Part shown: positions 5,479 to 32,148 of the stretch, in pieces | Position numbering within the stretch: the stretch's first letter is position 1 | How the letters are laid out: every line of letters starts with the position of its first letter | Source: Candidatus Lloydbacteria bacterium | GTDB taxonomy: Bacteria > Patescibacteriota > Minisyncoccia > Phycocordibacterales > 21-14-all-47-15 | Reading direction: 5' to 3' | Assembly (NCBI GenBank): GCA_016214545.1 | Contig: JACROH010000001.1 | Span: 1 to 32,148, forward strand | DNA length: 32,148 bases | Position numbers and translations under genes: made by a program | Notes under the pieces: model-generated | What the model was told of the DNA's origin: nothing | The model's input: the letters and a program-made list of their open reading frames with translations, nothing else | The model's database searches: none

Positions 5479-6669
5479 TTATTTTGTATCTTTGATGGTG
5501 AGACTATATCTAAGTCCATAGAGGACAATAATGCCCAAAATAAGAAACATGAATCGAAAATCGATAAACGCAAGCAGCGCGCTTGCTGCAAGGGGGCCGA
5601 GCAAGTAGCCCAAGGGGTGGGTGTAGCGAAAAACGCTGATAATGGCGGCGTCCGAAGCATTTATTTGTTTGAAAAAATAACTCTCGTTCATGGTTTGCAC
5701 GAGGGTCGCTCCGATTCTTGTCATGAAGAGAAGCGCTGCCCAGAGTAGCACGCTTTTGCTTGTGACAAAGGTCAAGAGACCGGTTGTTATTGCCATGAGG
5801 AGAAATCCGAGCGAAAGCATTTCTTTTTCTCCAAATCGCGTGTCGGAAAGACTGCCTGAGGGGATGCCGAAAAGAACAAACGGAACGAGCATTATAGTGA
5901 AAATGATTCCGATATCTCCCCACGCCATCCCCATATACTTATGAAGATAGAGAGGGGTGTAAATTACCATCCAAGAGAAAAAAAACGAAAGGAGAAGATT
6001 CGACATGAAAATACGGTAAATATCTTTTCGCGTCCAAATCTCCCTCAGAGTGCCGATGAGGGGAATGTGCGCGTAGGGAGGGTCGCGAAAATCATTGAAT
6101 TTTTCAAAGATGATGACCAAAACCGGAAAAAGAATAACTCCGGCACTTGCAAATATTTTCCAGTAATCTCCGTCGGTCAGTATGAGGCCGGCGATGAGCG
6201 GGGGAGCAAGCCACGCTGCGTTTTGTGCCGTCAAATAGACGCCGCGAATTTTTCCGGTCGTCTCGTTTTTGGTATTGCTTTCCAAAAAAATGTCCATGCT
6301 GAAAAGGGCTATCGGGAATATGGAAAGGTGGACAATAAAAACAGGTACCAAAAACCATACCGGGTTTTTCATGCTCGCCAAAATGGCGAGCGAAATGATT
6401 TCAACAAGAATGAGCGAGAAAATAATCCGGTAGTTGCCGTATCGGTTGAGGAGTGAAGGCATGGCAATGAGTCCCACAATAGAGGCAACCGACCCTAAGG
6501 CAAAAACGGTACCGACTAACGTGTCATTCAAAAAGGTTCCAAGAAAAGAGGATTCAATGTATGCCAAAAGCGCCGCGTGGAAAGCGAATAGGAAACTTGA
6601 TACATAGACGGCGCGGAGCAGTCCACCACTCTGTTTTTCTTCCTGCGCTATTGATTGCGTAGCGTGCAT
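5479..6669 (-). CDS. MFS transporter
   Basis: 396 aa, about 12 hydrophobic segments, MFS-like loop 'GIPSGSLSDTRFGEKEMLSLGF'. Confidence 0.85.
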   Translation of the reverse strand: MHATQSIAQEEKQSGGLLRAVYVSSFLFAFHAALLAYIESSFLGTFLNDTLVGTVFALGSVASIVGLIAMPSLLNRYGNYRIIFSLILVEIISLAILASMKNPVWFLVPVFIVHLSIFPIALFSMDIFLESNTKNETTGKIRGVYLTAQNAAWLAPPLIAGLILTDGDYWKIFASAGVILFPVLVIIFEKFNDFRDPPYAHIPLIGTLREIWTRKDIYRIFMSNLLLSFFFSWMVIYTPLYLHKYMGMAWGDIGIIFTIMLVPFVLFGIPSGSLSDTRFGEKEMLSLGFLLMAITTGLLTFVTSKSVLLWAALLFMTRIGATLVQTMNESYFFKQINASDAAIISVFRYTHPLGYLLGPLAASALLAFIDFRFMFLILGIIVLYGLRYSLTIKDTK

Positions 6670-30255: not shown

Positions 30256-30723
30256 TCATTCGGGCTTGTCCGTAAGCGTCGCTTTCTCGTTTGTTTCATT
30301 GCCGTTTTGTTTGCGATGAAACCAAAGCGATGAAAGAGCCGCGGCGATGAGAAGGATCATTGATTGAATCGCGCTCTCAAACATATTGTCCGGAAGCGAA
30401 AGATACGGATTTCCAAAGACCCAATGGGTGACGATGTTATAACTCTCCATCCATAAAAATACACCGATGACGACAATGGCATACCATTCTCCCTTTTGGC
30501 CGTTGCCGCACTCAACCGATAAATGACGAAACGTTTCTTTGAGGCAGGTATACACGAGGAGTGTCGCCATCCAGAAGTAGGAGAGTTGGTCGGGCATCGG
30601 GTCGAGCTCGGCGTGGAATGCGATGAGCTGGAGTCCGACATAGGAAACGGTGAGCCATTTCAAAAATCCATACAGACATGCTTTATAATGCGCTTTTTCA
30701 AATTGTGTTTGTTGTGTTGCCAC
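30256..30723 (-). CDS. Four-TM hypothetical membrane protein (GTG start)
   Basis: 'gcgcAAGGAGGTGAtacccGTGgcaaca' consensus SD; about 4 hydrophobic segments. Confidence 0.75.
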   Translation of the reverse strand: MATQQTQFEKAHYKACLYGFLKWLTVSYVGLQLIAFHAELDPMPDQLSYFWMATLLVYTCLKETFRHLSVECGNGQKGEWYAIVVIGVFLWMESYNIVTHWVFGNPYLSLPDNMFESAIQSMILLIAAALSSLWFHRKQNGNETNEKATLTDKPE

Positions 30724-30802
30724 GGGTATCACCTCCTTGCGCCGAAAGGGCATTGATACAAAGAACTCTTTTTAGCATAGCAGAACAAAAATGCCGCATG
30801 CA

Positions 30803-30831
30803 TTGACATTTTATAGTTCGAGCGGTAGCGT
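30803..30831 (+). promoter_or_regulatory. Promoter for the monoheme cytochrome gene
   Basis: TTGACA, 17-nt spacer, TAGCGT. Confidence 0.5.
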
Positions 30832-30884
30832 TTTTAGAGGATTGGTTGTTGTTAATATCAACCTTCTCTTGAAAGGGATTTTTC

Positions 30885-31169
30885 ATGAAGAAGTCTATTG
30901 GTTGTTTTGTGCTGAGTCTTGGTTTTGTGTTTTGTGTCTCGTCGGTTTCTTATGGGGGCGGCATTGAGGATGTGGCAAAAAGTTGTATGGCGTGCCACAA
31001 AGAAGGGCAGACCGGCAAGAAGCCGGATCTGAAGACCCTCTCCAAGAAAGATTTTATGGAGAAGATGCAGGAGTATAAAGAAGACGACGGAAGTTTTATG
31101 GGAAAGAAAGCCAAAGCGCTTTCTGACCAACAAATAAAAGACTTGGCGGATTATTTTTCAAAAAAATAA
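30885..31169 (+). CDS. Small secreted monoheme c-type cytochrome
   Basis: Signal peptide 'MKKSIGCFVLSLGFVFCVSSVSYG', heme motif CMACH, distal FMGKKAKALSDQQIKDLADYF. Confidence 0.88.
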   Translation: MKKSIGCFVLSLGFVFCVSSVSYGGGIEDVAKSCMACHKEGQTGKKPDLKTLSKKDFMEKMQEYKEDDGSFMGKKAKALSDQQIKDLADYFSKK

Positions 31170-31186
31170 TCTCTAACAAAAACAAA

Positions 31187-31218
31187 AGCGCGGAACGCAA
31201 TAAATCGCATTCCGCGCT
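31187..31218. terminator. Bidirectional terminator
   Basis: AGCGCGGAACGC aataaatc GCATTCCGCGCT, one mismatch, then T-run. Confidence 0.8.
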
Positions 31219-31224
31219 ATTTTT

Positions 31225-32028
31225 TTAATTCACTTTCCATGTATGTGCCGGATGGCATGTGGTGCAACTTGCCACCTTGTTTCCCTTAAATATCCCGCGT
31301 TCCGAATGTTTTTTGTTTCCGATGACGCTCACGTGGCATTGCGACATGCAATTCACGGGGGTTATTGTCGGGCTTGTCGTGTGCGGCTTATGACATACCG
31401 CACATTCAAATTGCATCGGGCTTTTTGTGGGAGAAACGTTCTTCTCCTCGTGGCACGTGAGACAGCTTTCTTTTGTCGGCTTTAACGAACCAGTGTCTTT
31501 TGTCTTTGCCAAGAAAGCATGGCAGTCGGTGCACGATAAATCGCTCATGCCGCTTGTTTTTTCAATGCGGCTTTTCATGTGGCAGGTTTGGCAATTTTCC
31601 GCGGTTGTTTTCGTATTGTGGAGCTTGCCAAAATGACAGGTAACGCACTGTATGCCGTTTTTAACAACATGTTTCTCGTGGCCGATGGTCCCCAAAACAT
31701 TTTTGGTAACCGTTGCGTTTGTTTTTAGGTGGCATTGTTCGCAGACGGTCTTATCCAGTTTTGCATGCGGGCCGACGTCTTCTTTGCCGACAACTGCGCG
31801 GAGAGCCATGGCCATGCGTCCAGGCATATCTTGTGTGTGACACACTTTGCAATTTACCCCTTTGTGGGCGTTTTTCTGCCAGGTATAAAATGCCCTTTCC
31901 ATCACATGACATGATTGGCAAAAATTAACGTTGTGCTCGACATAGTTGTATGCTTTGTAGAGCGAAGCAATTCCAATCGCAAGTACGATTAGGGCCGCTA
32001 GCCCTAATATTTTCATTTTCTTGCTCAT
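31225..32028 (-). CDS. Membrane-anchored multiheme cytochrome c, NapC/NirT-like, 10 heme-binding motifs
   Basis: N-terminal TM; CQSCH, CKVCH, CEQCH, CVTCH, CQTCH, CTDCH, CLTCH, CAVCH, CMSQCH, CTTCH; SD 'aaaggaggccgtatATG'. Confidence 0.93.
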   Translation of the reverse strand: MSKKMKILGLAALIVLAIGIASLYKAYNYVEHNVNFCQSCHVMERAFYTWQKNAHKGVNCKVCHTQDMPGRMAMALRAVVGKEDVGPHAKLDKTVCEQCHLKTNATVTKNVLGTIGHEKHVVKNGIQCVTCHFGKLHNTKTTAENCQTCHMKSRIEKTSGMSDLSCTDCHAFLAKTKDTGSLKPTKESCLTCHEEKNVSPTKSPMQFECAVCHKPHTTSPTITPVNCMSQCHVSVIGNKKHSERGIFKGNKVASCTTCHPAHTWKVN

Positions 32029-32148
32029 ATACGGCCTCCTTTCCCCCTCATTTTTTCAATGAATTTTATATTTTACGCGCCAAAATATCCGTGTGTATAA
32101 AACCACAAACGGTTTCGTTTTGCAAATGGTTTTTTGAGATGCCGTGTT

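Follow-up and report, generated by a model that had tools for sequence, protein, structure and literature searches.

A two-gene cytochrome c islet, probably acquired horizontally, beside the tmRNA gene of a Candidatus Lloydbacteria bacterium

Organization of the cytochrome locus

The window, a 32,148-base stretch of DNA from a Candidatus Lloydbacteria bacterium, carries two convergently transcribed cytochrome c genes near its right end. The first (30885–31169, + strand) codes for a secreted class I monoheme cytochrome c of 94 aa with a signal peptide and a CMACH motif; the second (31225–32028, − strand), preceded by a GGAGG Shine-Dalgarno sequence, codes for a membrane-anchored ten-heme cytochrome c of 267 aa. 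Both reading frames, their strands and their motifs are as the initial annotation gave them, and the shared terminator that it placed between the genes is real: a terminator scan identifies a bidirectional hairpin at 31187–31218, with T/A runs on both sides, whose folding relative to shuffled sequences gives z = −5.3 and −5.1 on the two strands. The window merely opens a longer contig of 270,910 bp, which contains no N, and the pair, at 30.8–32.1 kb, is thus not at a contig end. Further hemes had been envisaged just beyond 32148, but the genes that follow there are tmRNA (32367–32788, − strand), smpB (identified by reading from the sequence) and ftsH. GC is even across the region.

To the left of the pair is a conserved orphan gene (30256–30753, − strand) coding for a protein with four membrane-spanning segments (4-TM), which has no match in Pfam or NCBIfam. 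It had been considered together with the cytochromes as part of one module, but a 70% identical ortholog sits at the corresponding position in G001, a complete congeneric genome that lacks the cytochromes, and by this comparison the 4-TM gene is an old property of the lineage, outside the cytochrome module. The assignment to the CPR is supported by the listed genomes of the phylum, which are of approximately 0.4–1.1 Mb, many of them rated 90–100% complete.

A probable insertion beside the tmRNA gene

The order of the genes for NDK, a beta-CASP hydrolase, L20, L35, IF3, pgsA and the 4-TM protein, followed by tmRNA, smpB and ftsH, is kept in G001, with DNA identity to this contig of about 78–86%. 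In G001 the interval between the 4-TM gene and tmRNA contains ~280 unrelated bases and lacks a cytochrome. In blastn comparisons and flank alignments the shared sequence ends near 30790 on the left and resumes near 32277 on the right, and because G001 has the same gene order without the pair, we read the pair as an inserted segment, no longer than ~1.5 kb, adjoining the tmRNA 3' end. The islet so defined spans 30790–32148 in the window and runs past the window end to ~32276 on the contig.

The 3' end of tmRNA is a common integration site. No direct repeats of this end were found to bound the islet, and tmRNA-targeted integration is therefore suggested by position only. Both genomes have incomplete copies of the tmRNA 3' end (GGAGATGCCGGGAATC), direct and inverted, in the interval from the 4-TM gene to tmRNA, at reverse-complement positions 5669 and 5859 of locus L042 in G001 and at 32161–32380 of the present contig (C11); these are possible integration remnants or a local repeat. 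Elsewhere on the contig, ~124 bases near tRNA-Ile (C11:39640–39763; L012:9640–9763) are 82% identical to the G001 sequence beside tmRNA, which suggests a mobile or repeated element near tRNA and tmRNA genes of the genus.

The pair is rare, and the expectation that such cytochromes would be notable for the CPR is borne out. Only one of the 380 phylum genomes sampled – the present one – has a PF14522 match above cut-off, the same genome is the only one of the sample with PF13442, and a protein search of 148 relatives returns a single copy, again the present one. Two other PF14522 hits in the phylum, both sub-threshold, were rejected, one being an L24-like ribosomal protein and the other a frame that looks non-coding. 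Exact peptide patterns searched in 84,980 species genomes and viral contigs revealed no close relatives, and there was no match in phages and one weak NapC/NirT hit in plasmids. The empty site alone does not discriminate between gain and loss, but since the pair is missing from every other genome sampled in the phylum, gain in this lineage is far likelier than loss in G001.

Ranked among the host genes by synonymous codon usage, the ten-heme gene is at the 15th percentile and the monoheme gene at the 14th. On the same scale no host gene scores as low as six Nitrospirota homologs of the ten-heme gene, which fall at 0, and a Nitrospinota homolog is at the 4th percentile. A pair seen once, in an incomplete and fragmented assembly, might be a chimera of assembly or binning in which Nitrospirota DNA was joined onto a CPR contig, but we regard this as highly improbable: it needs two false junctions ~1.5 kb apart in an otherwise syntenic contig, no near-identical source was found in the collections, and both GC and codon usage match the host, the latter not matching the homologs. 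Given the two-sided synteny with the empty site in G001 and the host-like codon usage, the cytochromes are very probably a genuine part of the genome.

The ten-heme protein

The ten-heme protein has a hydrophobic helix at its N-terminus followed by nine CxxCH motifs and one CxxxCH (CMSQCH), in the order CQSCH, CKVCH, CEQCH, CVTCH, CQTCH, CTDCH, CLTCH, CAVCH, CMSQCH and CTTCH; as judged from the sequence, ten such motifs within 267 residues cannot be chance. It exceeds the Pfam cut-offs for PF14522 (5e-16), PF14537 and PF03264, the last with 27.3 bits against a cut-off of 24.1 but over residues 5–69 only. In an AlphaFold model (mean pLDDT 42) the anchor helix alone is confident.

The initial description of this protein as NapC/NirT-like applies to the anchor and the first two hemes (residues 5–69), but not to the rest of the protein. 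The features in common with NrfH and NapC/NirT (2j7a, TIGR03153, PF03264) are the anchor helix, the first two heme sites and a Met two residues past the first CxxCH. NrfH is a tetraheme protein, the likeness is confined mainly to residues 5–85, and TIGR03153 (NrfH) scores 44.9 bits, far under its equivalog cut-off of 134.2. With ten hemes, the protein does not conform to the tetraheme definition of the NapC/NirT/NrfH quinol dehydrogenases, and the data do not support its being a quinol dehydrogenase of that family. The NrfH-like first 70–85 residues would allow contact with a quinol, but no source of quinol is visible in the assembled genome. The decahemes of the DmsE/MtrA type and GSU2203 (TIGR03508, NF041028) likewise have ten hemes and c7/c3-like repeats, but the present protein is membrane-anchored, has no porin partner, and scores only 29.7 bits with TIGR03508 (cut-off 192.2) and 26.3 with NF041028 (cut-off 325). 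An identity as a DmsE/MtrA decaheme was rejected, with TIGR03508 under cut-off and housekeeping genes on the flanks.

Relatives in Nitrospirota and Nitrospinota

A degenerate DNA pattern of heme sites 1 and 2 retrieved 53 stretches from named genomes, among which the best matches are proteins from Nitrospinota and Nitrospirae that are of comparable length and have eleven motifs. In a census of three phyla, those of the Nitrospirae, Nitrospinota and Deltaproteobacteria representatives, with a threshold of E<=1e-25, the family is present in 89 of 346 Nitrospirota genomes and 7 of 77 Nitrospinota genomes, and in none of 297 from Desulfobacterota, the phylum of a Deltaproteobacteria representative. 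The ten-heme protein is 31–38% identical to family members over residues 3–266 (E to 2.8e-45), the best being G588, L116, with 38% identity. The alignment is full-length and keeps colinearity from the anchor through heme 10, with the single N-terminal helix, the order and spacing of hemes 1–10 and the CxxCHxM at the first heme in common, and it includes the CxxxCH, which is found in a Nitrospirota subset of the family. The Candidatus Lloydbacteria protein stops just short of heme 11 and lacks two family-conserved histidines (157 and 247). Eleven motifs are the majority form rather than a strict definition of the family, and a Nitrospirota subgroup (L124, L126, L133 and L144) also has ten hemes and lacks the C-terminal motif.

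The phylogeny, a test suggested with the initial annotation, nests the ten-heme protein inside the Nitrospirota/Nitrospinota family, where the 21-row clade that contains it has support of 100/98; the sister group is G588/G583, with modest support (93/81). At 2.24 changes per site its branch is very long, which leaves the donor no more precisely placed than as a member or relative of these phyla.

Family members are accompanied by genes that the islet lacks. In the Nitrospirota genome G569 the homolog is followed by genes for a pentaheme cytochrome, the C-terminal and N-terminal halves of cytochrome b and a Rieske protein, a Rieske gene is near the homolog in Nitrospinota G517, and in G588, the best relative, pentaheme and class I monoheme genes are nearby. 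The ten-heme gene of the islet has no pentaheme, Rieske or cytochrome b partner, and its monoheme neighbor is in the opposite orientation, whereas that of G588 is within an apparent operon. The monoheme neighbor of the G588 homolog, like the Rieske and cytochrome b genes beside other relatives, nevertheless counts in favor of the horizontally acquired islet proposed below.

The monoheme protein

The small protein has the features of a class I cytochrome c, a CxxCH near the mature N-terminus and a domain match, with PF13442 at 28.8 bits (cut-off 27) and PF00034 also above cut-off. Among solved structures the closest are the class I cytochrome c553 and flavocytochrome c heme subunit (1e08, 3vrd), but both similarities are weak (E ~0.01), and there is no flavin partner in the islet. 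It is only 24% identical to the monoheme protein beside the G588 homolog, and on this account the two cytochromes may have separate origins.

Retention of the heme sites

The heme-binding C, C and H positions of the ten-heme protein are identical to those of the family in 30 of 30 cases, with a mean identity of 23% at the 223 other positions; among the conserved histidines outside the motifs, seven are kept and two are changed. Together with the host-like codons, this conservation would favor a long stay in the host, with selection acting on heme binding. Some of the conservation and of the branch length may predate the transfer, however, and as part of the branch may do so, selection within the CPR is something that we infer.

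These data bear on whether the pair is inert cargo that never becomes holo-cytochromes for want of a maturation system and is heading for loss. Its presence in a single genome of the phylum sample, the long branch and the losses of the eleventh heme motif and two histidines would suit such a fate, as would the maturation genes not being found in the 68%-complete genome. Set against this, all ten heme motifs that are left have stayed exact while the protein diverged by ~65%, the frames are intact with a good Shine-Dalgarno sequence and a terminator, the codon usage suggests long residence, and Nitrospirota have a natural ten-heme version of their own (L124). On balance we consider inert cargo unlikely. 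We favor instead an old horizontal transfer of a two-gene cytochrome islet that a CPR lineage has kept, probably for electron exchange at the cell surface.

Maturation and respiratory partners

Cytochrome c maturation and quinone biosynthesis genes, anticipated as companions of the cytochromes, are not visible in the genome, of which 68% is assembled. PF01578 (CcmC/CcmF/CcsA) and PF05140 (ResB) are absent from this part, and neither is above cut-off in 147 relatives, while control genomes do give hits. With a third of the genome missing, the absence from this genome is not proof, and the maturation gap is both the main weakness of our reading and its most interesting feature. The assembled genome is predicted to encode 26 polytopic membrane proteins; the ones that were scanned have roles in transport, proteolysis, division or the envelope, with two cation ATPases and SecY assigned by eye, and no cytochrome b, NrfD-like protein or quinone prenyltransferase was noticed among the 26. 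No quinone or bc gene was seen in the assembled 68%. Two small contigs of the assembly, C2 and C3, consist of N throughout. Other CxxCH open reading frames of the genome were discounted, as they look like UvrA, zinc-finger proteins or spurious frames; one of the last, at 82012–82215, is inside an O-antigen ligase gene.

CPR bacteria have been argued to lack electron transport chains ancestrally (Beam et al., PMC7507113). There is a precedent for multiheme cytochromes in the CPR in Candidatus Parcunitrobacter nitroensis, a Parcubacterium described as having decaheme and NapC/NrfH-family cytochromes encoded in a respiratory cluster, alongside complex II/III and further genes of respiration (Castelle et al. 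2017, PMC5220378); the likeness is one of description, and the present genes form an isolated two-gene islet. No isolated islet of the Nitrospirota/Nitrospinota type was found in the literature searched. With this precedent, the Rieske and cytochrome b genes adjoining Nitrospirota family members and a genome only 68% complete, maturation, quinone and reductase genes of a fuller chain could reside in the unassembled third. We find this quite improbable, as the islet is alone among housekeeping genes, the assembled part shows no polytopic respiratory protein, and the complete genome G001 has neither these cytochromes nor PF01578 or PF05140.

Possible role of the islet

We propose that a lineage of the CPR (Patescibacteria) took up two genes at an intergenic spot adjoining the tmRNA 3' end, one for a membrane-anchored multiheme cytochrome of the Nitrospirota/Nitrospinota family and one for a small class I cytochrome. 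A single helix would hold the ten-heme protein to the cytoplasmic membrane, on its outer face. The heme chain of this protein would link a partner in the membrane or at the cell surface with the small secreted cytochrome, conducting electrons between the two; the latter, a typical soluble carrier, would act as the shuttle. The likeliest use is surface electron exchange, as a redox sink or with a neighboring cell, not a complete respiratory chain; exchange with a host cell, as suggested initially, would be one form of it. In a more specific and improbable version, the cell has no maturation or quinone genes of its own, and the imported ten-heme wire is loaded with heme by way of a partner cell or by an undescribed route and exchanges electrons directly with that cell.

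The bearer of the islet is a very small bacterium that probably depends on a host, from a group regarded as non-respiring. A minimal islet, consisting of a multiheme wire and a likely shuttle, is a simple test case for the use of borrowed redox proteins by the CPR, and it bears on where the heme comes from and on whether an episymbiont and its host exchange electrons; candidate partners would be members of the Nitrospirota or Nitrospinota.

We note several other genes in this small genome. There is a fatty acid desaturase (PF00487; L022:16378–17205, C11:246378–247205), the known enzymes of this family working with oxygen and an electron donor, and a seemingly unusual SbmA/BacA-family peptide importer (PF05992, E 4e-128; L021:12947–13999, C11:222947–223999). 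A protein with a MASE3 membrane sensor domain is encoded at L016:3370–4173 (C11:113370–114173), and two adjoining GH130 mannooligosaccharide phosphorylase-like genes are located at C11:47458–50664 (L012:17458–20000).
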